Assembly (NCBI GenBank): GCA_002713365.1
Contig: PASR01000017.1
Coordinates: 32,628 to 96,627 of the forward strand
Direction: 5' to 3'
Source: Rhodospirillaceae bacterium
Lineage (GTDB): Bacteria; Pseudomonadota; Alphaproteobacteria; UBA6615
DNA length: 64,000 nucleotides
The notes beneath the pieces are model-generated. The model saw only the letters and a program-made list of their open reading frames with translations, did no database searches and had not been told where the DNA came from. Positions within the stretch are counted from its first letter, which is position 1, and the number at the start of each line of letters is the position of its first letter. Position numbers and translations under genes: made by a program. Of this stretch, positions 1 through 62,360 are shown piece after piece.

Positions 1-697
1 TTTATTGGCAGCCGAAAGGCACCGTCGATTAACTGGCATGGGCCAACATATAAAATTATCCTTAGCTGACGTAGCTTTCGCTACAGTGGGAAACCTGGGT
101 TATATTGGTGAGGTGGAGATTAATAAAGAGGAACGCCCAAACATTGGAAATAGTGTCTATGGAAGTTATGGGGATGACTTTGGAACAATAGATAATAGAC
201 GGGTGATGATTATTGCTGTTTCTGTCTCACAGTGGAAAAAACTTATAAAAGCTACTGAAAGTGAAAACGCTATAAACAAATTAGAGAAGAAATTGGGATT
301 AGACTTTAATAAAGAAGAAAACAGATTTGAGGCTAGAAAAGAAATTAATAAAATAATTGCTGGTTGGTGTGAAAAATATAGTCTTGAGCATATCCAGACA
401 ATATTCAACAAACATAATGTGTGTTGGGGTCCATACCAAACATTTACACAAATGCTAGAAGAAGACGATAGGTGTTCAACTAACAACCCATTATTTGCGG
501 AAGTGTTACAGCCTGGAATAGGTAAGTATCTTATGCCAGGAGTACCTCACCAGTTTAATTCAGAAGAACGAGAGCACCCACGTGGACCGCTTCTAGGTGA
601 ACATACGGACCAAATATTATCAGAAGATCTAGGACTTAATGAAAATCAAATTGGCAAATTATATGATCAAGGTATAATTTCTGGGATAAATGAATGA
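1..697 (+). CDS. mct: Mesaconyl-CoA C1-C4 CoA transferase (2-methylfumaryl-CoA isomerase), 3' part
   Basis: C-terminal part of a CaiB/BaiF (family III) CoA-transferase; the frame is open to the window edge, so the 5' part lies outside. It opens with LLAAERHRRLTG, continues with a YGSYGDDFGT-type segment, CSTNNPLFAEV and QPGIGKYLMPG, and ends with the family tail GPLLGEHTDQIL. From memory these blocks match Chloroflexus Mct much better than generic family III transferases. Mct moves CoA within mesaconate from the C1 to the C4 carboxyl. The stop overlaps the next start (ATGA), and that gene encodes the enzyme expected to use the C4 product, which supports the call. The catalytic Asp would be in the missing part. 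Confidence 0.85.
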   Translation, partial: LLAAERHRRLTGMGQHIKLSLADVAFATVGNLGYIGEVEINKEERPNIGNSVYGSYGDDFGTIDNRRVMIIAVSVSQWKKLIKATESENAINKLEKKLGLDFNKEENRFEARKEINKIIAGWCEKYSLEHIQTIFNKHNVCWGPYQTFTQMLEEDDRCSTNNPLFAEVLQPGIGKYLMPGVPHQFNSEEREHPRGPLLGEHTDQILSEDLGLNENQIGKLYDQGIISGINE

Positions 698-1545
698 AAA
701 TAGACCAACATATAAGTTACGGTGATTGGTTACCCTCAGTAGAGAAAGTTACTGAGATAATTGATCTTACCCAGGTTAGAAAGTTGGCTGGAGTTTTGAA
801 CCTTGATGAAACATCCCTGGTAAACGGATCTCATCTTCCACCAATGTGGCACTGGCTTTTTTTTCTACACAGAGCGGAAACTAATAATATAGGAATAGAT
901 GGACATCCAAAGAGAGGTGGATTTTTTCCACCAATAGAACTTCAACGTCGAATGTTTGCTGGAGAACAAATTAACTATCATAATCCACTATTAGTAGGCC
1001 TACCCGCCACCAGGACGGGTACAATAACTCGATTAGATGAAAAAAAAGGTAAAAATGGACGAATGGTGCTTGTAACAGCTACGTACATTATTGAACAAGA
1101 AGGAAAAAAATGCATCGAGGATAAGCATGATATAATATATATAGATGGCGGAGAAGAAACCCCCGCACCTGGTCAAGATTCATTCATAAAACCTAATGAT
1201 AAGTGGCATCGTATATATAAAGCTGACCCGGTACTCTTATTTCGTTATTCAGCGCTAAGCTTTAATAGTCATCGTATTCATTACGATAGCAAATACGCGG
1301 AAAACGAAGAGGGGTATCCAGGCTTAGTAGTTCACGGACCATTCACTGCGCTACTATTAGCAGAATTAGCAAGAGATAACATCCAAGAATCTTTAACAGA
1401 GTTTAGCTTTCGAGGCCGAGCGCCACTATTTGAACCTTGGTCTTTTCATTTAATTGGTAATTCTAATAATGAAGGTATTGCTGAACTTCAAGCCATACGT
1501 AATGACTCTGTCATAGCAATGACCGCCACTGCAAAATTCAGATAG
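694..1545 (+). CDS. meh: Mesaconyl-C4-CoA hydratase (HTD2/MaoC-like)
   Basis: 283 aa, close to the usual length of the double-hotdog HTD2-like hydratases. The N-terminal FAS1-type dehydratase half carries LPPMWHWLFF (48-57) and HPKRGGFFPP (71-80). The C-terminal hotdog has FNSHRIHYD (190-198) and YPGLVVHGP (208-216), where the hydratase active-site residues sit. In Chloroflexus the related enzyme hydrates mesaconyl-C4-CoA to citramalyl-CoA, which a lyase splits to acetyl-CoA and pyruvate. Its ATG overlaps the mct stop, so translation is probably coupled. An itaconyl-CoA or other C4-acyl-CoA hydratase role is possible, but linkage to mct favours mesaconyl-C4-CoA. Confidence 0.8.
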   Translation: MKIDQHISYGDWLPSVEKVTEIIDLTQVRKLAGVLNLDETSLVNGSHLPPMWHWLFFLHRAETNNIGIDGHPKRGGFFPPIELQRRMFAGEQINYHNPLLVGLPATRTGTITRLDEKKGKNGRMVLVTATYIIEQEGKKCIEDKHDIIYIDGGEETPAPGQDSFIKPNDKWHRIYKADPVLLFRYSALSFNSHRIHYDSKYAENEEGYPGLVVHGPFTALLLAELARDNIQESLTEFSFRGRAPLFEPWSFHLIGNSNNEGIAELQAIRNDSVIAMTATAKFR

Positions 1546-1554
1546 TGAAAAAAT

Positions 1555-3240
1555 ATGAATAATATTATCAACACCACCTCTAACATGAATAAAGAACGAG
1601 TGCTTTCTTTATGTCATCAGTCATTAGAGGCGATGCAAAAGCATCTTAATGTGTTGACGTCTGTAGCAACATCAATAGCCGCACCGGGAGGTCCGATAGA
1701 ACCTAAACGCCTTATTGAACATCAATATGCGTTGCATGGATTTGCCTGGATGGTAACCTATATAACAGCCTTACGAGAGCTTCTTAACTGGGCAAAGCGT
1801 CTTAACAACAAAGGGCTTTTAGATGATCTAGAAATTTTAATTCTACAATGTGGGTATGGATCCTACCTTAAACAACTGAGATCTGGAATTGCAATGAGCC
1901 AGGATGAATTTGCTCGTCCAAATGATCTTGGTATAGCTGATGCTGCTGAACTGAATACTCCAGCGATTGATGAGCTTATATGTTTGGGAGATACTATTAG
2001 CGTTAGACAAAATATAGCTATAGTACTTAGCGAAAGAATAGGTACAAGAAGTTTCGGTAATTTAAGTTTAGACGATACACATACAATTATTCGAGACCAA
2101 TTTTCACGTTTTTCAGATGAACGTGTAGCTCCAGAGGCTCAAGCGTGGCATATAGCCGATGATTTAATTCCAATAGAAATTATAGAGGAAATGAGTGGCT
2201 TAGGTGTATTCGGACTTACTCTTCCTGAAGAAGATGGAGGATTAGGTTTAGATAAAACTGCAATGTGCATAGTTACTGAAGAACTTTCTCGTGGTTATAT
2301 TGGAGTGGGCTCTTTGAGTACTAGATCAGAAATAGCTGCAGAATTAATTCGCTTTAATGGAACAAACGAACAAAAGGAAAAATACCTTGCGTCCATTGCG
2401 TCAGGTTCAATACTGCCTACTGCAGTATTTACGGAACCAAATCATGGTTCCGATCTAGCTCATATTCGAACACGTGCTGAATATATTAAAAATAATTATA
2501 AAATAACTGGTAACAAGATTTGGATAACGCACGGAGCACGTTCGGATCTAATGACGCTCTTGGCACGCACAAGCAATAAAGATGATGGATATGGTGGATT
2601 AAGCATGTTTCTTGCCGAAAAACCAAGAGGTACTGATAAAGAACCCTTCCCTGCAAAGGGAATGAGCGGGTCTGAGATAAGGGTACTTGGGTATATGGGT
2701 ATGAAAGAATATGAAATTGCCTTTGACGGTTTTGAAGTTGATAAAGAATCATTACTAGGTGGTGAAGAAGGTAATGGGTTTAAACAATTAATGTCCAGCT
2801 TTGAAACAGCACGTATTCAGACAGCCGCACGTGCAATTGGGGTTGCCCAAAATGCATTAGAATTATCTCTAAATTATGCTAACGAACGGTCTCAATTTAA
2901 TAATTCCATTATAGATTTTGCCAGAGTTGGTGGAAAGATAGGCTGGATGGCTGTAGAGACAATGATTGCCCGTCAACTTACATACTTTTCAGCACGACAA
3001 CGCGATAATAATCAGCGTTGTGATATAGAAGCAGGTATGGCTAAGTTATTGGCAGCAAGAGTAGCTTGGTCAAACGCCGACAATGGTGTCCAAATCCACG
3101 GTGGTAACGGGTATGCTGAAGAATTTGTTATGTCCAGGGTATTATGTGATGCACGTATATTAAATGTTTTTGAGGGTGCAGCTGAAATTCAGGCAGGAAT
3201 TATAGCCCGTGGACTAATAAGCCGACCTAATAGACCATAA
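1555..3240 (+). CDS. mcd: (2S)-methylsuccinyl-CoA dehydrogenase
   Basis: 561 aa acyl-CoA dehydrogenase with an extra N-terminal helical region of about 160 aa, the architecture of ethylmalonyl-CoA-pathway Mcd (about 550 aa); ordinary acyl-CoA dehydrogenases have about 380 aa. Visible blocks are the family-specific EHQYALHGFAWMVTYI, the FAD/substrate block TEPNHGSDLA (near 295), IHGGNGYAEE, and FEGAAEIQ near the end, where the catalytic Glu sits. It oxidises methylsuccinyl-CoA to mesaconyl-C1-CoA, which is the substrate of the upstream mct product. It starts 9 bp after meh. A second Met (residue 11) could be the true start; neither has a strong ribosome binding site. Confidence 0.88.
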   Translation: MNNIINTTSNMNKERVLSLCHQSLEAMQKHLNVLTSVATSIAAPGGPIEPKRLIEHQYALHGFAWMVTYITALRELLNWAKRLNNKGLLDDLEILILQCGYGSYLKQLRSGIAMSQDEFARPNDLGIADAAELNTPAIDELICLGDTISVRQNIAIVLSERIGTRSFGNLSLDDTHTIIRDQFSRFSDERVAPEAQAWHIADDLIPIEIIEEMSGLGVFGLTLPEEDGGLGLDKTAMCIVTEELSRGYIGVGSLSTRSEIAAELIRFNGTNEQKEKYLASIASGSILPTAVFTEPNHGSDLAHIRTRAEYIKNNYKITGNKIWITHGARSDLMTLLARTSNKDDGYGGLSMFLAEKPRGTDKEPFPAKGMSGSEIRVLGYMGMKEYEIAFDGFEVDKESLLGGEEGNGFKQLMSSFETARIQTAARAIGVAQNALELSLNYANERSQFNNSIIDFARVGGKIGWMAVETMIARQLTYFSARQRDNNQRCDIEAGMAKLLAARVAWSNADNGVQIHGGNGYAEEFVMSRVLCDARILNVFEGAAEIQAGIIARGLISRPNRP

Positions 3241-3252
3241 ATAGATGTATTT

Positions 3253-4056
3253 ATGATGAATAAAACCAATATTCTAATAACTGATACAGTAACTAAATTG
3301 GGAAACGAAGCTTGTCAAAATGTCGTTATTGCTGGCTCTCACGGAGGCATTTATGCAGGCTATGAAGCAGCGAAAGCCAAAGTTAGAGGAATAATTCTAC
3401 ATGATGCCGCAGTTGGTCTAGATGAGGCGGGAATTGGCTCATTAAAATATCTTGAGAACTTAGGTATAGCTGCAGCTACAATTGACTACCGTAGCGCTAT
3501 CATTGGTAACGGAAATAGCTTAGCTAATGATGGTATTATTAGCTTTGTTAATAAAATCGCTTATAAAGTTGGATGTTTACCAGGGCAAAAGGCTATGGAA
3601 TGTGCAATAATGATGCAGAAATCACCTTACATTACTAAACATGTACCTACTTATGAAGAAGCTCGTTTTTTAATTCGGGAGAACTCAAAAGGCATAATCG
3701 TCAGAGGCTGTGACTCTGTATCTCTAGTAAAAGCAGAAGATGAAAACGTAATAGTAATTACCGCATCTCATGGAGAAGTATTAGCATCCTCTCCTACTTG
3801 GGGAAAACGACCAAAAGTTATGGCTGCTATATTCAACGATGCCGGATCAGAATTAGTTACACGTTTACCGGACCTAAATAAATTAGGTATTCCAGCTGCT
3901 ACAGTTACCAGCGATAGCGCCAGGATAGGAGATGCACGTTCATCATATGATGATGGTATTATTTCCCATTATAATGCAAAAGCCTCTCAAATGGGTATTA
4001 CGACTGGCATTAGTACAGTTGAGTTTGTTAATATCATAATAAGTAAAGTTAACTAA
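3253..4056 (+). CDS. Unknown protein made of two similar halves
   Basis: 267 aa that I do not recognise by function. It has two related halves. The first has VVIAGSHGGIYAG, GVGLDEAGIGS-like spacing, LENLGIAAATIDYRSAIIG and NDGIIS. The second repeats ITASHGEVLAS, FNDAGSE, LNKLGIPAATVTSDSARIGD and DDGIISHYN. The shared order is a SHG motif, an N/H-DA motif, a LGI-AAT strand and a DDGIIS motif, so it looks like an ancient tandem duplication of a unit of roughly 110-130 aa. No signal peptide or membrane segment is seen. It follows mcd by 12 bp and its 3' end overlaps the convergent E1 beta gene by 4 bp. Operon position suggests a role linked to mesaconyl-CoA metabolism, but that is only inference. 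Confidence 0.7.
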   Translation: MMNKTNILITDTVTKLGNEACQNVVIAGSHGGIYAGYEAAKAKVRGIILHDAAVGLDEAGIGSLKYLENLGIAAATIDYRSAIIGNGNSLANDGIISFVNKIAYKVGCLPGQKAMECAIMMQKSPYITKHVPTYEEARFLIRENSKGIIVRGCDSVSLVKAEDENVIVITASHGEVLASSPTWGKRPKVMAAIFNDAGSELVTRLPDLNKLGIPAATVTSDSARIGDARSSYDDGIISHYNAKASQMGITTGISTVEFVNIIISKVN

Positions 4057-5027
4057 AAAAAGCTTCTAGCCTTAGCAATAACTTGTTCTTGAGATATCAT
4101 GTAACTCTCTTCAAGCGGTATCGAGAAAGGTATAGGTATTCGAGCACCGCCCATACGTTTAACAGGACCTTTAAGGTTATCAAATAAATGTTCTGTTACT
4201 TCAGAAGATATCTCTCCACCAAAACCGCCAACCTGAACAGCCTCATGTACAACCATCATTCTGCCGGTTTTTATAACCGATGAAAACACAGCTTCTCTGT
4301 CCCATGGCCATAAGGTTCTAAGATCAATTACTTCTGTAGATACTCCTTCTTCTGAAAGAGTTATTGCAGCCTTCTCTACTACACTTACCATACCTGCCCA
4401 AGTTACTATAGTTAAGTCGGAGCCTTCCTTAACAATCCGTGCTTTACCCAAGGTCAAAGGTTCAACATCATTTTCATTCACTTCACCTACCGAGCCCCAT
4501 AAACCCTTATGTTCCATATAAACTACTGGGTCATCACAACGTATTGCCGCTTTCAATAACCCTCTATTATCAGATGGCGTGGCAGGCGTTACAACAACCA
4601 ACCCGGGTACATGAGCATACCAAGCCTCTGGAGACTGTGAATGTTGTGCTGCTATACCGCCTCGTATACCAATTGGCATTCTGGCTACCATCGGTACTCT
4701 TGCCTGACCGCCAAACATGTAGCGAGCTTTAGCTGCCTGATTAACCAATTCATCAACTGCACACATAGCAAAATCAGAAAAGCGTAACTCAGCGATTGGC
4801 CGAGTCCCTGCTAACGCGGCACCTATTGCAGCCCCCATAATTGTTGCTTCAGATATAGGTGTATCTACAATTCTATCAGCACCATATTCTGCTTGTAAAT
4901 CTTTGTATTGACCGGCCATTCCTCCTTCAAAGCCTAAATCTTCCCCTAGCGCCCAAACTGTTGGATCACGTTCTAATTCTTCTTTCAGTCCCAATCGAGC
5001 TGCCTGCGCATAAGTCATTTCAGTCAT
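4053..5027 (-). CDS. ThDP-dependent dehydrogenase E1 beta subunit (acetoin/pyruvate type), copy 1
   Basis: 324 aa transketolase-like pyrimidine-binding plus C-terminal domains, the usual length for AcoB/PdhB. GEDLG lies at 28-32 and the ThDP-activating Glu at 60 in TPISEATIMG. FSDFAMCAVDELVNQAAK, QHSQSPEAWYAHVPG and VVTPATPSDNRGLL are standard E1 beta blocks. It works as an alpha2-beta2 heterotetramer with the upstream E1 alpha, decarboxylating a 2-oxoacid or cleaving acetoin. Its ATG overlaps the alpha TGA (ATGA). No lipoyl E2 or E3 gene is near, so partners must be encoded elsewhere or an artificial-acceptor-type reaction is used. Substrate unknown. Confidence 0.88.
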   Translation of the reverse strand: MTEMTYAQAARLGLKEELERDPTVWALGEDLGFEGGMAGQYKDLQAEYGADRIVDTPISEATIMGAAIGAALAGTRPIAELRFSDFAMCAVDELVNQAAKARYMFGGQARVPMVARMPIGIRGGIAAQHSQSPEAWYAHVPGLVVVTPATPSDNRGLLKAAIRCDDPVVYMEHKGLWGSVGEVNENDVEPLTLGKARIVKEGSDLTIVTWAGMVSVVEKAAITLSEEGVSTEVIDLRTLWPWDREAVFSSVIKTGRMMVVHEAVQVGGFGGEISSEVTEHLFDNLKGPVKRMGGARIPIPFSIPLEESYMISQEQVIAKARSFF

Positions 5028-6022
5028 GAATTAACTCCCACTTGTGGAGCGCCAACATCTTGGACATCAGTAAAAGCGTCAGCTATATCAGGCCAGGGAG
5101 CAGCATGCGCATCAACAACATATTGTGAAATCGTTTGTTCTGCTTCATCCCTAGCATTAGCTAATTCTTCTTCCGAAATACCCTGTGTAATCAACCAAGA
5201 TTCGGTACGACGAACTGGTTCAAATTCCAAAGCTGCTTCTGCCTCACCTGGAATACGGTATAGAGCTTTATCGTGAGCGAAATGACCCCGTAATCGATAG
5301 GTCATAGCTTGAATTAATTGTGGACCACTACCACTTCGAATCTCATCAATTATTCTAGCTGAAGTATTATCAACCAATAAAAGATCATTTCCATCTATAG
5401 TTATTGCAGGAATTCCATAACTCTCAGCTCTTGCAGCAATACCCTCTCCAGCGGTTACAGTTTTTGTAGTTGTTGTAGCTGCAATTTGATTATTTTCACA
5501 GACAAACAAAACAGGTAAATTATAAATTTTAGCCCAATTAAGAGCTTCCATGAATGGTCCCCTATTAATACCTCCATCACCAATAAAATTAACTACAATC
5601 TTATCCTGTTTAAGTAACTTTATTGCTTGTGCAGCTCCGACAGATATAGTGCAACCATCAGCAATTACTCCGTTAGCTCCAAGCATACCAACTGAGAAAT
5701 CAGCAATATGCATAGACCCCCCTTTTCCACCACTCGTTCCTCCTACACGACCGAATAACTCAAGCATCATGGCCCTTGGATCTGCACCTTTAGCAATTGA
5801 ATGTCCGTGACCTCTATGATAGCTGGTTAGTAGGTCTTCCTTTCTTAAATTTGCACAGATTCCAACAGCAATAGCTTCTTCACCAATATATTGATGGACA
5901 GAACCACGAACATTACCAGCATGAAAATTTTCGCCAGCTGCCTCCTCAAAAGCTCTTATAAGGAGCATTTTTTTATACATATTAAATACTCTTTCTGGTT
6001 CATTTGCTTGGTCTTGAGCCAC
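5024..6022 (-). CDS. ThDP-dependent dehydrogenase E1 alpha subunit (acetoin/pyruvate type), copy 1
   Basis: 332 aa PdhA/AcoA family protein. The ThDP/Mg2+ motif runs from GDG (148-150) to NN (177-178). HRGHGH (69-74) and KGGSMHIADFS are the usual active-site and cofactor blocks. The phosphorylation-loop region is short, as in bacterial acetoin-type E1 alpha. First gene of a two-gene operon with E1 beta. It is divergent from the acetolactate-synthase-like gene at 6171, with a 148-bp shared spacer that should hold both promoters. It is clearly paralogous to the alpha subunit at 7965; both share KVGGTSGGKGGSMHIADFS-like text apart from one residue. Confidence 0.88.
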   Translation of the reverse strand: MAQDQANEPERVFNMYKKMLLIRAFEEAAGENFHAGNVRGSVHQYIGEEAIAVGICANLRKEDLLTSYHRGHGHSIAKGADPRAMMLELFGRVGGTSGGKGGSMHIADFSVGMLGANGVIADGCTISVGAAQAIKLLKQDKIVVNFIGDGGINRGPFMEALNWAKIYNLPVLFVCENNQIAATTTTKTVTAGEGIAARAESYGIPAITIDGNDLLLVDNTSARIIDEIRSGSGPQLIQAMTYRLRGHFAHDKALYRIPGEAEAALEFEPVRRTESWLITQGISEEELANARDEAEQTISQYVVDAHAAPWPDIADAFTDVQDVGAPQVGVNS

Positions 6023-6170
6023 GCTTTTTTCTCCCTTTTGTTACGTATAAAAACACTTCAAAGGTAAACATTTGTTTTCTAAGCTAGAGCATATTAGTAT
6101 TACTCTGATGATGCACCAGGTTAAATTTAAACTATATTGAATAGAACATAAAAAAGAAAATGGTAATAAA

Positions 6171-7934
6171 ATGAATATTAATGCGGAAGAGCAATCAAGC
6201 GGAGATAACGCCCGCTTAGAAATGTCCGGTGGCGAAGCTATTGCCGAAATGCTCAAACGACACAATGTTGGTCCAATGTTTGGAATGGCTGGGTTTCAGC
6301 TTCTCCCTTTTTATGATGCTGTAAGAAGTCTTAATATGGCTCATACCTTGATTGCTGATGAAAGAAGCGGAGCATTTATGGCAGATGCATGGGCACGTGT
6401 TACTGGACGTCCTGGTGTATGCGACGCCACCCTTGGTCCTGGTGCAACAAATCTACTAACTGCTCTTACTGAATCATTGAATGCAGGTATTCCTATTATA
6501 GCAATGATTGGTGATACTAACAGAACGCACGCATGGAAAAACATGACTCAGGAAACGCGTCAAGTTGAAATGCTACGCCCAGCTGTGAAAGAAGTCATAC
6601 GTATTGAAGTAGGTCAACGTATACCCGAACACATAAGATATGCGTATACCATCGCTACCTCAGGGCGTCCTGGCCCTGTTCTAATAGACGTACCAGAAGA
6701 TATATGTCATGGCGTATTTGATTTTGATGAAGATGATTTATATGTTCATGAGTCTACTACTAAGGCCCCAGCTGTACGCACTAGACCTAGCGTTAATGAT
6801 ATAAAACAGGCGTCCTTAATGCTAACCAGTGCCGAAAGACCAGTAATTCTTGCAGGAGGAGGCATACATATTTCTGGTGCTCAAGAAGCGCTTACGGCAT
6901 TATCAAGGGAACACTCAATACCAGTTGCGCATACATTGTCAGGTAAAGGATCCATAGCTTGTACAGATGAACTGTCCTTGGGTTTATTTGGTCGCTATGA
7001 CCGAACTGCTAACGAAATAATCGATAAAAGTGATTGTATTTTAGTAGTTGGTTGTAAACTTGGCGAGATAGCTACCAAACGATATACCATTCCCAGGACG
7101 GGAATACCAATTATACACCTAGATATACTTCCTGAAGAGATTGGTCGATGGGCTAATACTGACTTAGCTCTCTGGGGAGATGCCCGCGAAACCCTGAAGG
7201 ATTTACGTGAGGCTATGAAACAAGAGGCTGAAACATTAAGGAATAGAAGAAGTAAATACATTTCAGAACTTAGTGCTGGAAAATTAAAATGGAGAGCGAA
7301 TGTTAATGAACGGCTAGTATCGATTGAAGAACCAATTAATATGGCCCGTCTATGTCATGAGTTAAATAACACTTTACCAGATGATGCCATCTTAGTAGCC
7401 GATGGGGGATTTGCTGCTCATTGGACAGGGCTTCTTTATGATACAAAAAGACCAGGCCGTGGCTTTATAGTTGATCGTGGAATGGCCTCAATCGGCTATG
7501 GAGTAGCTGGTGGAATTGGCGCTCAATTAGCTGCTCCTGAACGCTCGGTATTTTCATTAACAGGTGATGGGGGACTTAATATGACGTTGGGTGATCTCGA
7601 AACTGCAGCCCGTCTTAAAGTACCACTGACCATGATAGTAGTTAATAACGCTGCATCAGGATATATAAAAGCATTGCAGCACGCGATGTTCGAGGGCCGT
7701 TATCAATCATCAGAGCTATCTGAACTTAATTATGCTTTAATAGCTGAGTCTTTGGGATGTAAAGGTATTAGAGTTACAGATCCCGATAGATTAGCTGATG
7801 CATTTGAAGAGAGCCTCAAGGAACGTAAATTACCCACAGTTATCGATGTAATAGTCACCCGAGATGCAGGGAAAATGCTTCCCGGTGTCGATAGTAGATC
7901 AGCACCAATTAAAAAAGGCGACCGAATTGCATAA
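6171..7934 (+). CDS. Acetolactate-synthase-like ThDP enzyme
   Basis: 587 aa with the three-domain order of the acetohydroxyacid synthase/decarboxylase family: PYR domain (about 18-185), central domain with ILAGGGIHISGA (near 225), and PP domain. The catalytic Glu is E64 in ADERSGAFMADAWAR. The ThDP/Mg2+ motif begins at GDGGLNMTLG (near 465) and ends at VVNNAASGY. Possible reactions are acetolactate synthesis, oxoacid decarboxylation or ligation of two oxoacids; sequence alone does not choose. The N-terminus does not look like sulfoacetaldehyde acetyltransferase. It is followed after 30 bp by a second E1 alpha/beta pair, so the three probably form one transcript and may act in sequence on an acyloin. 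Confidence 0.8.
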   Translation: MNINAEEQSSGDNARLEMSGGEAIAEMLKRHNVGPMFGMAGFQLLPFYDAVRSLNMAHTLIADERSGAFMADAWARVTGRPGVCDATLGPGATNLLTALTESLNAGIPIIAMIGDTNRTHAWKNMTQETRQVEMLRPAVKEVIRIEVGQRIPEHIRYAYTIATSGRPGPVLIDVPEDICHGVFDFDEDDLYVHESTTKAPAVRTRPSVNDIKQASLMLTSAERPVILAGGGIHISGAQEALTALSREHSIPVAHTLSGKGSIACTDELSLGLFGRYDRTANEIIDKSDCILVVGCKLGEIATKRYTIPRTGIPIIHLDILPEEIGRWANTDLALWGDARETLKDLREAMKQEAETLRNRRSKYISELSAGKLKWRANVNERLVSIEEPINMARLCHELNNTLPDDAILVADGGFAAHWTGLLYDTKRPGRGFIVDRGMASIGYGVAGGIGAQLAAPERSVFSLTGDGGLNMTLGDLETAARLKVPLTMIVVNNAASGYIKALQHAMFEGRYQSSELSELNYALIAESLGCKGIRVTDPDRLADAFEESLKERKLPTVIDVIVTRDAGKMLPGVDSRSAPIKKGDRIA

Positions 7935-7964
7935 GATAAATTATAACGATGAAACAGGAAAGAC

Positions 7965-8966
7965 ATGACCAATAACACAGCTTCTAACTATCCTGCTAGA
8001 ATACTAGAAATGTATAAAACGATGACTCTTATAAGAGCCTTCGAAGAAATTGCTGAAGAAGCTTTTGACGCTGGATTAGTGAATGGTTCTATCCATCAAT
8101 ATATTGGCGAGGAAGCTATAGGTACAGCTGTATGTGCAAACCTACGTAAAACTGATTTTATTTTATCAAATCATCGTGGTCATGGTCATGCTATTGCAAA
8201 AGGTGCTAATCCCGAAGCAATGATGAAGGAATTATTAGGTAAAGTAGGTGGAACAAGTGGAGGTAAAGGTGGGTCAATGCACATTGCTGATTTTTCTGTA
8301 GGTATGCTGGGAGCAAATGGAGTTTTGGCTGATGGCCTAACTATGGGAGTTGGGGCCGCTCAGGCACTAGTTCTCCGCAATGTTGATGCAATCGTTACAG
8401 TGTTCGTAGGAGATGGGACTACAAATCGAGGACCTTTCTATGAATCGCTTAACTGGGCAATGATATATGAGCTCCCAATTTTATTTGTCTGTGAAAACAA
8501 TACTTATGCATCATCGACTTCTACGCGCAAAGTCACGGCCGGTCCTGGTCCTGTAGCCCGGGCTGAAGCCTTTGGCATGCCAGCATATGATGTAGATGGT
8601 AATGATGTTCGTGAAGTAGATGAAATTGCTAGCAAAATAATTACAAATATACGTAATGGAGGTGGTCCACAATTTCTCCACGCAAAAACTTATCGTATTA
8701 AAGGGCATGTTTCTAGAGATAAAATGTTGTACCGACCAGAAGGTGAAACTGAAGCTAATTGGAAAAATGAACCTATAAGTAGATGTGCAGACTGGCTAAT
8801 AAAAAACGGTATTAGCGAAGCAGAGATTAATTCAACTAATGCTTCTGCATATAAAGAAATTAGAGATGCTCTGGAAGCTGCAATAGCAGCACCTTTTCCA
8901 GATGGCAAACTTGCATATAAAGACGTACAAGACTTAGGAAACCGTTATCTTGGAGAGCACTCATGA
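7965..8966 (+). CDS. ThDP-dependent dehydrogenase E1 alpha subunit, copy 2
   Basis: 333 aa, AcoA/PdhA family, paralogue of the gene at 5024-6022. ThDP motif GDG at 149-151 to NN at 178-179; NHRGHGH at 69-75; KGGSMHIADFSVG at 101-113. Residues around the substrate pocket differ from copy 1 (FYESLNWAMIYELP against FMEALNWAKIYNLP), so a different 2-oxoacid or acyloin is plausible. The gene starts 30 bp after the acetolactate-synthase-like gene and overlaps E1 beta by ATGA. Again there is no E2 or E3 nearby. Confidence 0.88.
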   Translation: MTNNTASNYPARILEMYKTMTLIRAFEEIAEEAFDAGLVNGSIHQYIGEEAIGTAVCANLRKTDFILSNHRGHGHAIAKGANPEAMMKELLGKVGGTSGGKGGSMHIADFSVGMLGANGVLADGLTMGVGAAQALVLRNVDAIVTVFVGDGTTNRGPFYESLNWAMIYELPILFVCENNTYASSTSTRKVTAGPGPVARAEAFGMPAYDVDGNDVREVDEIASKIITNIRNGGGPQFLHAKTYRIKGHVSRDKMLYRPEGETEANWKNEPISRCADWLIKNGISEAEINSTNASAYKEIRDALEAAIAAPFPDGKLAYKDVQDLGNRYLGEHS

Positions 8967-9958
8967 GTATGATTACGATGACTCAGGCGGCTGCTGTTCG
9001 TGAAGGGTTAGCTGAAGAAATGCGTCGAGACCCTCTTGTTTGGGCTTTAGGTGAAGACCTTAGCACCGCTCATGGCGGTACCAGTGCAGATCAGTATCTA
9101 GGATTGATAGACGAGTTTGGGGATAAGAGGATAGTAAATACCCCGATATCTGAGAATACTATTATGGGAGCAGCAGTTGGTGCCGCTGTAGCTGGAACTA
9201 GACCGGTCGCTGATCTACGTATGGCTGACTTTGGTATGTGTGCGGTAGACGAATTAGTAAACCAAGCAGCAAAAATCCGTTATATGTTTGGTGGACAAGC
9301 TCGAGTTCCCCTAGTCGTTAGACAAGCGATTGGTGTCCGCAAAGGAGGAGCCGCCCAGCATTCACAATCGACAGAAGCTTGGTATATCCATACTCCTGGC
9401 TTAGTTGTTGTTGCCCCTGCTACGGCGTCCGACGCTAAAGGTTTAATTAAATCAGCAATACGCACAGACGATCCAGTCGTTTATATGGAACATAAGGACC
9501 TGTGGTTAGCTGAGGGGCAAGTGTCCGATAACCCAAATGATTTAATAGATATTGGTAAAGCTAGTATTATGCGACAAGGAAGCGATCTAACAATCGTCTC
9601 TTGGTCAAAAATGGCTTTATTATCTCTTCAAGCCGCCGATCAACTAAAATCTGAAGGTATCTCTGCTGAAATTATAAACCTACGTAGTCTTTGGCCATGG
9701 GATAAGGACACAATCTATAAGTCAGTTAGTAAAACAGGACGGCTACTTGTTGCACAGGAATCAGTTCAAGTCGCGGGCTTTGGAGCTGAGATATCAGCAG
9801 ATATAAGTGAAAATCTAAACCATTCATTGAAAACTTACGTGCGTAGAATTGGAGCTCCACGAACCCCAGTACCTTACTCGGAACCTATGGAAAACGAATA
9901 CAGAGTGACTACAACGCGTATAATCAAGAAAGCAAAAGAGTTATTCTCCGCACCTTAA
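8963..9958 (+). CDS. ThDP-dependent dehydrogenase E1 beta subunit, copy 2
   Basis: 331 aa, AcoB/PdhB family, paralogue of the gene at 4053-5027. GEDLS near residue 31, the Glu of NTPISENTIMGAA, MADFGMCAVDELVNQAAK and QHSQSTEAWYIHTPG are conserved blocks. It has a small insertion (STAHGGTSAD) after GEDL that copy 1 lacks. It pairs with the upstream alpha subunit through the ATGA overlap. It ends the ThDP operon; the following 127 bp are AT-rich with no clear hairpin. Confidence 0.88.
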   Translation: MSMITMTQAAAVREGLAEEMRRDPLVWALGEDLSTAHGGTSADQYLGLIDEFGDKRIVNTPISENTIMGAAVGAAVAGTRPVADLRMADFGMCAVDELVNQAAKIRYMFGGQARVPLVVRQAIGVRKGGAAQHSQSTEAWYIHTPGLVVVAPATASDAKGLIKSAIRTDDPVVYMEHKDLWLAEGQVSDNPNDLIDIGKASIMRQGSDLTIVSWSKMALLSLQAADQLKSEGISAEIINLRSLWPWDKDTIYKSVSKTGRLLVAQESVQVAGFGAEISADISENLNHSLKTYVRRIGAPRTPVPYSEPMENEYRVTTTRIIKKAKELFSAP

Positions 9959-57470: not shown

Positions 57471-58373
57471 TTATTTAGGGAATTTAGATAGATTTTCTAT
57501 AAGAATTTCATAAATCTCTTTAGGCGTTTTATCAAGATCACTATCTGTTAAAACTTCTATTAATTCTTCAATTCGTCTACCAATCAAGCCTTGCACTTGA
57601 TAAAGAATACGGGCTCGACGTTCTTCATCTCTATTTACTTTTTCTGAACGCCAAATTCGGTGACTTTCGATAGCTTCATCTAATGCCCTAAAACTATCAA
57701 TATTATTATTTGAGGTTTGTATAACTTTGGGAATCCATTCTTCTTTAACCCCAGACTTACGAGCTGCGGTAACAGCAATATCACCAGCCATTTGTTCCGC
57801 TCCAGGTAAATCTGATTTATTAACTACATAAATATCAGCCATTTCAAGTATACCCGCTTTCATAGCCTGTATGGCGTCACCTGATTCTGGCAGAAGAACT
57901 AAAACTACGGTATCAACTAAAGAGCGAATTGAATATTCAGCTTGGCCTACACCAACTGTTTCAACAATAACTTCATCAAAATTTTTATCTTCCATAGACC
58001 ACAATATATCAGCCGTATTATCTGCTAAGCCATCGTGTGCACGTCGACTAGGAATTGAACGAATAAAAATATTTGGGTTGTCGGAGACTGTTTCCATTCT
58101 TATTCGATCACCAAGCAAAGATCCCTTAGAAACAGGGCTAGTTGGATCAATAGCAATAACTCCTATCTTTCGATCCCTTTGAACTCGTTTTGAAGCTAGG
58201 TGACTAATAAGCGTGCTTTTCCCCGCGCCAGGTGCCCCAGTAACCCCGATCCTATAGAGATTATTTATTGGTATAGACTTTTGTTCCTCAAGTGTTTCTG
58301 ATACGGAAGCATTAGCAACACGAGACAAAGCCTTACTCATCTCTCGTCGCGAATTACGCGACTTCGGATTCAT
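57471..58373 (-). CDS. meaB: MeaB/ArgK-type GTPase, mutase chaperone
   Basis: 300 aa G3E GTPase. Walker A GAPGAGKST (46-54), DPTSPVSKGSLLGDR and the IVETVGVGQAEYSI switch region, then NKSDLPG (guanine specificity). It protects and reloads cobalamin in acyl-CoA mutases. Length matches standard MeaB (about 300-330 aa). It overlaps the CoA-transferase gene by ATGA and belongs to the mutase operon, which supports this role. Shorter N-terminus than usual (no long dimerisation tail). Confidence 0.88.
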   Translation of the reverse strand: MNPKSRNSRREMSKALSRVANASVSETLEEQKSIPINNLYRIGVTGAPGAGKSTLISHLASKRVQRDRKIGVIAIDPTSPVSKGSLLGDRIRMETVSDNPNIFIRSIPSRRAHDGLADNTADILWSMEDKNFDEVIVETVGVGQAEYSIRSLVDTVVLVLLPESGDAIQAMKAGILEMADIYVVNKSDLPGAEQMAGDIAVTAARKSGVKEEWIPKVIQTSNNNIDSFRALDEAIESHRIWRSEKVNRDEERRARILYQVQGLIGRRIEELIEVLTDSDLDKTPKEIYEILIENLSKFPK

Positions 58374-59512
58374 TTTTTTTCTACCTTAATTATTTCAGTT
58401 AATATTTCACTATTGTGTTCTCCAAGCATTGGCGGAGGAGCATAGCTTGTTTCTTGACCAACAAATTTAATGGGACTGCCGAGAACTCGCAAAGGTCCAT
58501 CAGGGGTCGGTATGATGGCTATCATTTCACGAGTAGCGACAATATCGCCTTCAATCGCTTCTTCTAAAGTTTCTATGCCTGAAATGACAATACCCTCGCC
58601 ACCCAAGAGCTCTACCCATGATAATGTATTCTGTGTTTTCATTAATTTAGCGGTCTCAGAAATAACTTCATTTCTATTTTTAGAGCGTGCTGCCATAGTA
58701 GAAAACTTGGGATCATCAATACGTTCATGCCACCCAACCAACTCACAAAATCGTCGCCAAAATTTATCGGTGCTAATAAATAAAACTGCAAAACCATCTT
58801 TAGTAGAAAAAACCTGAGCTGGCACCATATGAGGATGCCCACTATTAGCTATACGTTTTGGCTTAATACCATGATTAAGGTAAGCAGCTGCTAAATAATT
58901 TAACTGCATAAGCATTGTATCAAATAATGATACATCTACCTGTCCCCCTTTACCTTCCACTATTTTAGCAAGTAGACCAACAGCTCCCATAATTCCGGTA
59001 GAATTATCAACAGCTGAGTAACCGGCTTTTGTTGGTACTTCTCCTGGGTTACCCGTTAAAGCCATGACTCCGGTTAATGCCTGTACTATGTAATCATAAG
59101 CTGGTTTATCAGCATACGGACCCTTAAGACCAAATCCGGTTAAAGCCACACAAACAATTTTTTTATTATAAATTTTTAGTGATTCATAATTAAGTCCATA
59201 TTTATTGATTGTCTGAGGCCGTAGATTTGTAATCAATCCATGTGAAGATTTGGCTAAATGAGCTAACTGATCTCGTCCATTTTTCGTTTTCAAATCAAGA
59301 ACAATTCCTCGCTTATTACGATTAATACTACTAAAATAATCATTATATGGCCCAGTGAAATTAGCAGTGATATTCCTTGCCATATCACCATTTGGCGGCT
59401 CAATCTTAATTACGTCTGCGCCCAGATCTGCTAAAATCATGCTACAAAACGGTCCCGCAAGAACGTGGCCAACCTCAAGTATGCGTATACCTGCCAAAGG
59501 ACCATTAGTCAC
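58370..59512 (-). CDS. CaiB/BaiF (family III) CoA-transferase
   Basis: 380 aa. Opening GPLAGIRILEVGHVLAGPFCSMILADLGADVIKIE, then NRNKRGIVLDLK; candidate nucleophile D140 in KPAYDYIVQALTG; closing LGEHNSEILTEI. Starts at GTG 59512, which overlaps a TGA in the frame of the upstream B12-subunit gene (GTGA), a coupling that suggests that gene formerly ended there. In the mutase operon it probably loads CoA on the mutase substrate acid or unloads the product acid. Both candidate acids are unknown. Confidence 0.87.
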   Translation of the reverse strand: MTNGPLAGIRILEVGHVLAGPFCSMILADLGADVIKIEPPNGDMARNITANFTGPYNDYFSSINRNKRGIVLDLKTKNGRDQLAHLAKSSHGLITNLRPQTINKYGLNYESLKIYNKKIVCVALTGFGLKGPYADKPAYDYIVQALTGVMALTGNPGEVPTKAGYSAVDNSTGIMGAVGLLAKIVEGKGGQVDVSLFDTMLMQLNYLAAAYLNHGIKPKRIANSGHPHMVPAQVFSTKDGFAVLFISTDKFWRRFCELVGWHERIDDPKFSTMAARSKNRNEVISETAKLMKTQNTLSWVELLGGEGIVISGIETLEEAIEGDIVATREMIAIIPTPDGPLRVLGSPIKFVGQETSYAPPPMLGEHNSEILTEIIKVEKK

Positions 59513-59559
59513 ACTGTCAGTTCCTGATCAATAGCTAATAATACATCATCAATAGTCAT

Positions 59560-59907
59560 CTAAGCAGTAAAAACACCCCTTACACCAGCAGCTATCAGAC
59601 CTTCATAGTCATCTCTGGGTATTGTTCCACCGACAAATATTTTTATATCAGAAGCGTCAAGTTCATTAAGGCATTCCAAAGTCTGAACGACTATTTCTTT
59701 ATGACTACCTGAAAGTATACTAAGACCTATGGCATCAACATCTTCATCCACCGCTACACGCGCTATATACAAGGGACTTTTTCTTAAGCCGGTATATATA
59801 ACATCTGCACCAGCATCTCGTAATGCCAGAGCAATTATTTTTGCTCCAACATCGTGACCATCTAAACCCGGCTTTGCTATTAATATGCGCTTGCCTAATA
59901 AAGCCAT
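59560..59907 (-). CDS. Acyl-CoA mutase small subunit, cobalamin-binding
   Basis: 115 aa cobalamin-binding domain of the methylmalonyl-CoA mutase family. The lower-ligand His is H18 in GLDGHDVGAK; GLSILSGSH and VGGTIP are the other cofactor motifs. It ends GVFTA followed by TAG, about 16 aa short of usual homologues. The frame then continues as MTIDDVLLAIDQEL, a normal C-terminus for this domain, to a TGA at 59511-59509. So the TAG is probably a late nonsense change, read-through codon or error. The cofactor site is unaffected. It is 28 bp downstream of the large subunit gene. Confidence 0.85.
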   Translation of the reverse strand: MALLGKRILIAKPGLDGHDVGAKIIALALRDAGADVIYTGLRKSPLYIARVAVDEDVDAIGLSILSGSHKEIVVQTLECLNELDASDIKIFVGGTIPRDDYEGLIAAGVRGVFTA

Positions 59908-59935
59908 TTTATAAAAATCCGTATAATCTCTGTAG

Positions 59936-61579
59936 TTAGAATCTTACTGGTTCCTGGAATTCGCCCCATTTGCTCTTCAAAGTAGAAATCATCTCTCCTA
60001 CAGTGGCGTAAGCATGGCAGCAATCAATCAAATAAGGTATTAAGTTCTTGTTATCATCAATGGCAGCAGCTTCAAGAGCAGCTAATGATTTTTTTACATC
60101 AGCTGAATTTCTTGTGTCTAGAACTTGTTCATATTTAGCTATAACCTTAGCTGCTGCTTTCGGATCAAGTGTAAAAATTTCTCCAGCGCCTTCACTTTGG
60201 TTTTTACGTCTAAAGTAGTTTTGACCAACAATAACATTCTGACCTGAGTCAGATGCCTGTTTACGTTCAGAGGCACGCCTAGCAATCTTCATTTGCAACC
60301 ACCCGTCTTCAACTGCTTTCTCTACACCACCATATTGTTCTATTTCTTCTATAGTCTTAGCCATCCCGGACTCCATCTGATCAGTGAGCCATTCGACATA
60401 ATAGCTACCTCCTAAGGGATCGACCGTGCGAGCAATACCAGATTCATGCGCAATAATCTGTTGAGTTCTAAGTGCTATCTCAGCTGAATGTTCAGTAGGT
60501 ATTTGAAACGCTTCATCGAATGCGCACGTAAAAATAGACTGTGCTCCGCCCAAAACAGCCGCCATAGTTTCGGTGCCAACTCGAACAATATTATTATGTG
60601 GCTGAGCACCGATTAATGATGATCCTCCGCATACTACACCAAAGCGAAACATCTGGGCCTTCGGATCTTGAACATTATACCGTTCCTTCATCAGTTTAGC
60701 CCAAAGTCTACGTCCAGCTCTAAATTTACAAATTTCTTCAAAAAAATCCATATGAACATAAAAAAAGAAACTAAGACGTCTTGCAAACTTTTCTACATCT
60801 CCGCCTCGTCTTATTAATTCATCCGTATATGCCAACCCATTAGCCAACGTATATCCCATTTCTTCAATTGCTGTGCACCCGGCATCACGAACATGGGCTC
60901 CAGCAATAGAAATTGCATTAAATTTAGGCGTATGCTGATTAGAAAATAATATTGTATCTGCAATTAATCTCATTGATGGTTTGACAGGGAATATCCATGT
61001 ACCACGGGCTACATACTCTTTAAGGATATCATTTTGGATAGTTCCTGTTAATTTTTCCCGAGGTACGCCCTTTTTGTCTGCCACAGCACAATACATTGCA
61101 TAGCTAATTGAAGCTGTACCATTTATAGTGAAAGATGTAGAAATTTCTCCCACATCAATGCCATCGAATAAAATTTCTACTTCAGCTAGATTTGAGAGAG
61201 AGACACCAACTTTTCCCACCTCGGCCCGAGCCATTGGATCAATCGGGTCATAACCACATTGAGTTGGAAGGTCGAGAGCAACAGATAGGCCAGTCTGGCC
61301 TTGTTCAAGCAGAAATCTATAACGCTCATTTGATTCTTCAGCAGTACCAAAACCAGAATACTGTCTGATAGTCCATAGTCTACCACGAAATCCACTTTCA
61401 AATATCCCCCTAGTGAATGGATATTGGCCTGGACTACCTACTTCTGAAAAGTCTACCATATCTGGTGTCACTGAAATGGGTACTTCTATACCAGAGGGCG
61501 TAAAAGAATTAGGAACATTTGGTGGTTTCATCTCATTTGCTGAATCCGATTGTATTTTATTTTTTTGATTATTTATCAT
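59936..61579 (-). CDS. B12-dependent acyl-CoA mutase large subunit (methylmalonyl-CoA mutase family)
   Basis: The ORF opens at 61651, but GGGGGCGTAATAATG places the start at 61579 (MINNQKNKIQ), overlapping the crotonase gene by 11 bp; 547 aa. Substrate-barrel blocks: PFTRGIFESGFRGRLWTIRQYSGFGTAEESN, GLSVALDLPTQCGYD, TINGTASISYAM, SISGAH-like SIAGAHVRDAG and DPLGGSYYVE. Tyr in RQYSG and Arg in KPSMRLI are those of methylmalonyl-CoA mutase, whereas isobutyryl-CoA mutase has Phe there. The B12 domain is on a separate gene, unlike most bacterial methylmalonyl- and ethylmalonyl-CoA mutases. A dicarboxylic acyl-CoA substrate is likely, not certain. Confidence 0.85.
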   Translation of the reverse strand: MINNQKNKIQSDSANEMKPPNVPNSFTPSGIEVPISVTPDMVDFSEVGSPGQYPFTRGIFESGFRGRLWTIRQYSGFGTAEESNERYRFLLEQGQTGLSVALDLPTQCGYDPIDPMARAEVGKVGVSLSNLAEVEILFDGIDVGEISTSFTINGTASISYAMYCAVADKKGVPREKLTGTIQNDILKEYVARGTWIFPVKPSMRLIADTILFSNQHTPKFNAISIAGAHVRDAGCTAIEEMGYTLANGLAYTDELIRRGGDVEKFARRLSFFFYVHMDFFEEICKFRAGRRLWAKLMKERYNVQDPKAQMFRFGVVCGGSSLIGAQPHNNIVRVGTETMAAVLGGAQSIFTCAFDEAFQIPTEHSAEIALRTQQIIAHESGIARTVDPLGGSYYVEWLTDQMESGMAKTIEEIEQYGGVEKAVEDGWLQMKIARRASERKQASDSGQNVIVGQNYFRRKNQSEGAGEIFTLDPKAAAKVIAKYEQVLDTRNSADVKKSLAALEAAAIDDNKNLIPYLIDCCHAYATVGEMISTLKSKWGEFQEPVRF

Positions 61580-62360
61580 TATTACGCCCCCGTACTGGTA
61601 ATATTTTTTCAGCAGCATTCCAGTGATCTTCGTGAACCCAAGTATCCACAAACATCTTAGTCTCTATATCTTGCATTGATTTACGCGAATCTCCATTGCG
61701 GTACGAATCAGACAATGCCTTAAACACTCTAACCACCTGGGGAGCTTGAGCTCTTAGTGGCAGTAAAAATTCTTCAACATAATTCGCCAGGCTATCACCA
61801 TTCGACACAACCTTATCAATTAATCCTAAAGATAATGCTTCATCGCTAGAGACCATTTTCCCCGTTAACATTAATTGCAGGCCTCTAGACCTACCTACTA
61901 ATTGAAGCAAATCTGGACCTCCACCCCAAGCTGTAGATAAGGCTAAACGGCCTTGCACAAAACCAATTTTAGCATGAGAAGCGGCAATCCGAAAATCACA
62001 AGCCACTGCAAGTTCTGCAGCCCCACCAAATGTATTACCATTGAGTACTGCTATAACCGGAACTGGAAAGTTTCGAATTGCGTTTAATGAGGCTTTAGCA
62101 CTTAAGGACATCTCCTTTGCTTGGGCCTCGGTTTTTAATAGAGATAATTCCTTTAAATCACCTCCGGCAGCAAAAGTTTTACTTCCTGAACCAGTTATAG
62201 TCGCTGCTATAATATTTTCATTATCACTATAGTTTTCAAAAAGTGTTTTGATATCAGATAATAAAGCTAAACTGAGAGCATTATGTTTTTCTGGACGATT
62301 AAGAGTTACATAAAGAACTCTATCGCACACCTCAAATAGCAAGTGGTTTTCACTATTCAC
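61569..62360 (-). CDS. Enoyl-CoA hydratase/isomerase family protein
   Basis: 263 aa crotonase. RVLYVTLNRPEKHNALSL, KTFAAGGDLKEL (oxyanion loop 1) and NGNTFGGAAELAVACDFRIA (loop 2) are clear. The usual catalytic Glu pair of enoyl-CoA hydratases is only partly present: FVQGRLALSTAWGGG replaces the second Glu, so decarboxylase or other crotonase chemistry is possible. MmCD-type methylmalonyl-CoA decarboxylases are in this superfamily. First gene of the mutase operon; the mutase start lies inside its last codons. A TTAAAGCT inverted repeat lies 17 bp upstream. Confidence 0.82.
   Translation of the reverse strand: MNSENHLLFEVCDRVLYVTLNRPEKHNALSLALLSDIKTLFENYSDNENIIAATITGSGSKTFAAGGDLKELSLLKTEAQAKEMSLSAKASLNAIRNFPVPVIAVLNGNTFGGAAELAVACDFRIAASHAKIGFVQGRLALSTAWGGGPDLLQLVGRSRGLQLMLTGKMVSSDEALSLGLIDKVVSNGDSLANYVEEFLLPLRAQAPQVVRVFKALSDSYRNGDSRKSMQDIETKMFVDTWVHEDHWNAAEKILPVRGRNNDK

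Follow-up and report, generated by a model that had tools for sequence, protein, structure and literature searches.

The presence of Mcd, the (2S)-methylsuccinyl-C1-CoA dehydrogenase, is usually taken to indicate the ethylmalonyl-CoA pathway, and that of Mct, a mesaconyl-CoA C1-C4 CoA-transferase, to indicate the 3-hydroxypropionate bicycle of CO2 fixation. Both enzymes are encoded at the beginning of a 64,000-nt stretch of DNA (the window) from a Rhodospirillaceae bacterium (assembly GCA_002713365.1, contig PASR01000017.1, positions 32,628-96,627 of the forward strand), and both are present there without the pathways that they are held to mark, which raises the question of what they do together with Meh, the mesaconyl-C4-CoA hydratase-like protein encoded between them. 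In genome coordinates the window is G000:C17:32628-96627, where G000 is the genome of this marine alphaproteobacterium (2.52 Mb, completeness rating 100%) and the other G numbers are genomes of its family. We propose, with a probability of about 0.6, that the mct-meh-mcd operon specifies a route for the oxidation of (2S)-methylsuccinyl-C1-CoA, one that would be independent of the ethylmalonyl-CoA pathway.

The original prediction held that mct, meh and mcd are contiguous, with an ATGA overlap at the first junction and a 9-bp gap at the second, and this was borne out by the same-strand open reading frames (ORFs), which are followed by a further one:

Window 1..697, + strand: 3' part of mct, covering 231 of the 405 aa of a family III CoA-transferase (mesaconyl-CoA C1-C4 type).
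Window 694..1545, + strand: meh, mesaconyl-C4-CoA hydratase-like, 283 aa, overlapping mct (ATGA).
Window 1555..3240, + strand: mcd, (2S)-methylsuccinyl-C1-CoA dehydrogenase-like, 561 aa, 9 bp after meh.
Window 3253..4056, + strand: orf4, 267 aa, possible fourth operon member, 12 bp after mcd.

The complete mct gene (405 aa) is located at G000:C17:32107-33324 (= L009:18108-19325) with its first 521 bp lying before the window. The mct-meh-mcd order was found in seven family genomes (G000, G001, G002, G008, G010, G011, and G014) belonging to at least four genera, and the arrangement is therefore not due to chance. Eight relatives (G005, G007, G013, G015, G016, G017, G021, and G023) have mct-mcd without meh between the two, and the recurrence of both arrangements in the family indicates that these genes travel together in several genera. 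The neighbourhood list was obtained with a length-greedy gene caller, which gives antisense artefacts in GC-rich genomes, but its mct, meh, and mcd calls agree with tblastn.

The Mcd of the operon is of the same type as that of Paracoccus (6es9), the product of which is mesaconyl-C1-CoA. The two proteins align with 650 bits and 57% identity over 536 positions, including the N-terminal extension of about 170 aa, compared with only 240 bits for the other Mcd type (8ciw). The catalytic E535 of 6es9 (E540 here) is kept, as are R252 (R257), A285 (A290), F287 (F292), R421 (R426), W318, and E380. Residue 381 (window 2695-2700) is Met in this genome only, while the corresponding Arg376 of PdMCD is kept in all relatives checked; the change is either private to this genome or a base error of the assembly, and an adaptive R376M exchange is ruled out as a general feature because the relatives retain Arg. 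In the Mcd tree the family's protein nests among the Mcds of the ethylmalonyl-CoA pathway, consistent with a retention of Mcd after Ccr and Ecm would have been lost.

The identification of the first gene as mct, on which the original prediction depended, held up in the homology search, in which the protein groups with the solved Mct proteins of Roseiflexus (7xkg, 490 bits) and Chloroflexus (8apq, 486 bits). In the Mct of C. aurantiacus, Asp165 is catalytic and Arg47 and Tyr136 are carboxylate ligands (PMC9813914). The equivalent residues D164, R47, and Y135 are kept here and are invariant in 26 homologues, and they do not tell substrates apart within the family. Homologues of Mct are widespread outside bicycle loci. 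An 8ciw-type Mcd homologue was found near mct in 15 further loci, mostly gammaproteobacterial and apparently other catabolic clusters (e.g., L174 and L176 near 4308-9227, and L124 7974-10946). SDR and MaoC genes lie between the two in a Marinobacter locus, and thiolase and HMG-CoA-synthase-like genes lie near the pair in that locus and in another such locus. In these loci CoA may be moved intramolecularly as part of a different catabolic pathway.

The solved protein closest to Meh is the itaconyl-CoA hydratase of P. aeruginosa (PaIch, 8khg; 214 bits). In a maximum-likelihood tree, however, the seven family Meh proteins form one clade (100/100), which lies inside a supported clade (99/96) of Meh from 3-hydroxypropionate bicycle loci of Roseiflexus, Accumulibacter, and Magnetococcales, with PaIch outside. 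The tree thus rules out an identification of Meh as itaconyl-CoA hydratase.

Could the substrate of the operon come from the ethylmalonyl-CoA pathway, as originally proposed? Neither this genome nor any of the 24 family genomes has a Ccr match over the TIGR01751 cut-off, and no Mch was found in this genome as judged by a PF19315 match. An Ecm query that gave a high score in 67 of 240 alphaproteobacterial genomes gave none in the three family genomes tested (G000, G002, and G008), and this genome has two B12-dependent mutases, a canonical MCM (1240 bits; model cut-off 876 bits) and a two-part enzyme, each sharing about 38% identity with the Ecm of Accumulibacter. The contig upstream of the window does not encode Ccr, Ecm, or Mch either. 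At the thresholds used these three enzymes are absent; therefore mesaconyl-C1-CoA would neither come from nor go to the known ethylmalonyl-CoA pathway, and that pathway is rejected as the feed in this genome. The reverse direction, from citramalyl-CoA to mesaconyl-C1-CoA, had also been considered; it would stop at mesaconyl-C1-CoA because there is no Mch to use it.

The forward direction, in which mesaconyl-CoA would be converted to pyruvate, is supported by the gene identities, and a lyase for citramalyl-CoA, on which it had been said to depend, has a candidate in the genome. Four matches to the HpcH/HpaI family were found, one of which, at G000:C6:163016-163876, is RipC-like (261 bits to RipC_Ccl; best solved match RipC, 3qll), so that a putative citramalyl-CoA lyase is available, though unlinked and not certified. 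The second CitE-like lyase adjoins a CaiB-type transferase. No trifunctional Mcl of the bicycle type was present among the HpcH/HpaI matches examined, the two CitE-like ones (including the RipC-like one) being 25-26% identical to the Mcl of Accumulibacter.

In the route that we propose, Mcd would oxidise (2S)-methylsuccinyl-C1-CoA to mesaconyl-C1-CoA with transfer of the electrons to ETF, Mct would shift the CoA intramolecularly and so form mesaconyl-C4-CoA, hydration by Meh would yield (S)-citramalyl-CoA, and the RipC-like lyase would split the latter into acetyl-CoA and pyruvate. Mct would be required because Mcd is of the C1 type while Meh acts on the C4 ester. We infer all activities, the direction, and the role of the lyase from sequence, and the four steps would form a coherent chain.

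Among 240 genomes of the class, surveyed for Mcd, Ccr, and Ecm, this Mcd was found in 94, Ccr in 69, and Ecm in 67; 28 of the 94 genomes with Mcd lack Ccr, and 26 of those 28 also lack Ecm. Among the genomes outside the family that both surveys cover, 7 of 14 with Mcd but without Ccr have Mct, versus 6 of 51 with both Mcd and Ccr (Fisher p = 0.004), and a Meh-family gene is present in all 13 genomes with Mct versus 21 of 52 without it (p = 7e-5). Mcd may serve a second function, alongside Mct and Meh. Several Ccr-less genomes carry, near mcd, etfBA and genes for a cobalamin adenosyltransferase and a 3-hydroxyacyl-CoA dehydrogenase (named by eye, without a model).

How does the operon compare with known systems? 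It shares its type of dehydrogenase with the ethylmalonyl-CoA pathway, from which it differs in that mesaconyl-C1-CoA would go to Mct rather than to Mch and Mcl. With the second cycle of the 3-hydroxypropionate bicycle, and its partial forms in Accumulibacter, Kentron, and Thiosymbion, it shares Mct and Meh orthologues, the same reaction order, and the same Meh clade; it differs in that the genome has neither Mch nor, among the matches examined, a bicycle-type Mcl, and in that mesaconyl-C1-CoA would come from Mcd. Incomplete bicycles that include mct and meh were reported in Accumulibacter, Kentron, and others (PMC6593406). A Candidatus Accumulibacter locus (L192 1-11466) encodes Ecm, a MaoC protein, an 8ciw-type Mcd homologue, an HpcH-like protein, Meh, Mct, Mcl, and Mch, and the present operon is therefore not alone in linking genes for Mcd-like, Mct, and Meh proteins. 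In Cupriavidus and Pseudomonas, methylsuccinate is converted to acetyl-CoA and pyruvate via a C4-specific dehydrogenase with no need for Mct, and Cupriavidus would be unable to process the C1 ester of methylsuccinate any further (PMC12290011). Their cluster resembles the present route in leading from methylsuccinyl-CoA to the same products through mesaconyl-C4-CoA and citramalyl-CoA, but the dehydrogenase of our operon is of the C1 type, which needs Mct, and its hydratase falls in the Meh rather than the Ich clade; neither itaconate CoA-transferase (Ict) nor methylsuccinate isomerase (Msi) adjoins the operon among the ORFs inspected by eye. ThnO and ThnP of anaerobic naphthalene degradation also pair an acyl-CoA dehydrogenase with an intramolecular CoA-transferase; ThnP, which was characterised as transferring CoA intramolecularly before a beta-oxidation step and corrects the CoA left by a thiolase on the wrong carboxyl (PMC11659651), is a family I transferase acting on a cyclohexane diacid and is not homologous to Mct. 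The suggestion that the combination is undescribed stands in part: open-licence papers gave no account of a genome that lacks Ccr, Ecm, and Mch and has a C1-type Mcd alongside Mct and Meh, but Accumulibacter and the pseudomonads offer parallels.

Several points count against the proposed route. No source of methylsuccinyl-CoA was identified. The score of the full-length Mct with TIGR04253 (510 bits) is under the curated cut-off of 725 bits, so that the protein is Mct-like and not certified as Mct; Mct homologues of similar identity are found in unrelated catabolic clusters, and the two facts together mean that its substrate could differ. The RipC-like lyase is unlinked to the operon and scores below the RipC_Ccl cut-off of 375. 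In the eight relatives with mct-mcd, meh does not adjoin, and most of them carry a distant Meh homologue (37-40%) elsewhere. Both association tests treat genomes as independent and ignore relatedness, and a pairing test of Mct against Ccr loss on the Mcd tree, in which relatedness is controlled, gave only two independent pairs. As to the source, our guess is that a thiolase acting on a 4-methyl-3-oxoadipyl-CoA-like intermediate could leave CoA on the C1 carboxyl. On established chemical grounds, methylsuccinyl-C1-CoA is exactly what thiolysis of 4-methyl-3-oxoadipyl-CoA would yield; the open-licence literature gave no paper linking methylsuccinyl-CoA with 4-methyl-3-oxoadipyl-CoA, and none linking mesaconyl-CoA with SAR116.

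The enzymes might instead act on another 2-substituted succinyl-CoA, such as the CoA ester of a larger dicarboxylic acid, branched or cyclic, that arises when terpenoids, steroids, or aromatics are broken down, with the same sequence of dehydrogenation, intramolecular CoA shift, hydration, and retro-aldol cleavage. In Marinobacter and comparable loci, Mct homologues with 52-58% identity stand beside an 8ciw-type dehydrogenase, accompanied by genes for SDR, MaoC, and thiolase proteins; ThnP follows the same logic on a ring compound; and in this genus the region upstream holds genes of the acyl-CoA ligase, SCP-x-type thiolase, and SDR types. We nevertheless hold such a substrate to be unlikely, since Mcd retains the methyl pocket (A290 and F292) and the carboxylate ligands described for 6es9, and Meh falls in the mesaconyl-C4-CoA hydratase clade.

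It seems distinctly improbable that the operon serves external C5 acids (methylsuccinate, mesaconate, or itaconate) that would be imported, activated by a CaiB-type transferase, and enter as the C1 or C4 ester. The Pseudomonas and Cupriavidus cluster has been described as serving this purpose (PMC12290011), and the genome has nine family III CoA-transferase matches, one of them the neighbour of the CitE-like lyase, but the operon contains no free-acid transferase, methylsuccinate isomerase, or transporter, and its Mcd is not of the C4 type of that cluster. Uptake of C5 acids is compatible with the methylsuccinyl-C1-CoA route, for which it could be the substrate source.

A hybrid of the ethylmalonyl-CoA pathway and the 3-hydroxypropionate bicycle for acetate assimilation, in which Ccr and Ecm would supply methylsuccinyl-CoA and the operon would lead to pyruvate, is very hard to sustain, even though the Mcd belongs with those of the ethylmalonyl-CoA pathway both by type and by its place in the tree, and Accumulibacter clusters Ecm with mct and meh, because Ccr occurs in 0 of 24 family genomes and Ecm was not found in this genome, rated complete, or in the two relatives tested.

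The gene after mcd, orf4, is 53-69% conserved in seven relatives, adjoining mcd or nearby, and follows mcd in G001, G002, G007, G013, G017, and G021. It has no Pfam or NCBIfam match, and its predicted structure (pLDDT 84) gave no fold match in the PDB at E <= 0.001. Its halves resemble an internal duplication, with ASHG...IGDG...DGIISHxN occurring twice. Next comes a block (window 4053-9958) in which an acetolactate-synthase-like TPP enzyme stands between two E1 alpha/beta pairs of the pyruvate/acetoin dehydrogenase type; it comes after orf4 in several relatives as well. On the other side, upstream of the window, a LigK/RraA-like aldolase gene (L009:17170-17838) is divergent from mct and stands beside mct in about ten family loci; a promoter scan of the gap between the two gave no signal above chance. 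At window 57471-62360, genes for the two-part B12-dependent mutase (large subunit 59936-61651, B12 subunit about 59512-59920), a MeaB-like GTPase, a CaiB-type transferase, and an enoyl-CoA hydratase are clustered. This mutase was rejected as Ecm, being 38% identical to Ecm versus 43% to the MCM of the same genome and having a separate B12 subunit.

More broadly, many alphaproteobacteria lacking Ccr and Ecm could have kept Mcd and coupled it to Mct and Meh as a distinct pathway from methylsuccinyl-C1-CoA to acetyl-CoA and pyruvate, with its substrate from an undescribed route, e.g., thiolysis of a methyl-branched 3-oxoadipyl-CoA; we put this forward tentatively, at somewhat less than even odds. 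If the route in this operon is as we propose, it would let aerobic marine bacteria use the C1 ester of methylsuccinate, and it would point to an unrecognised source of methylsuccinyl-CoA.

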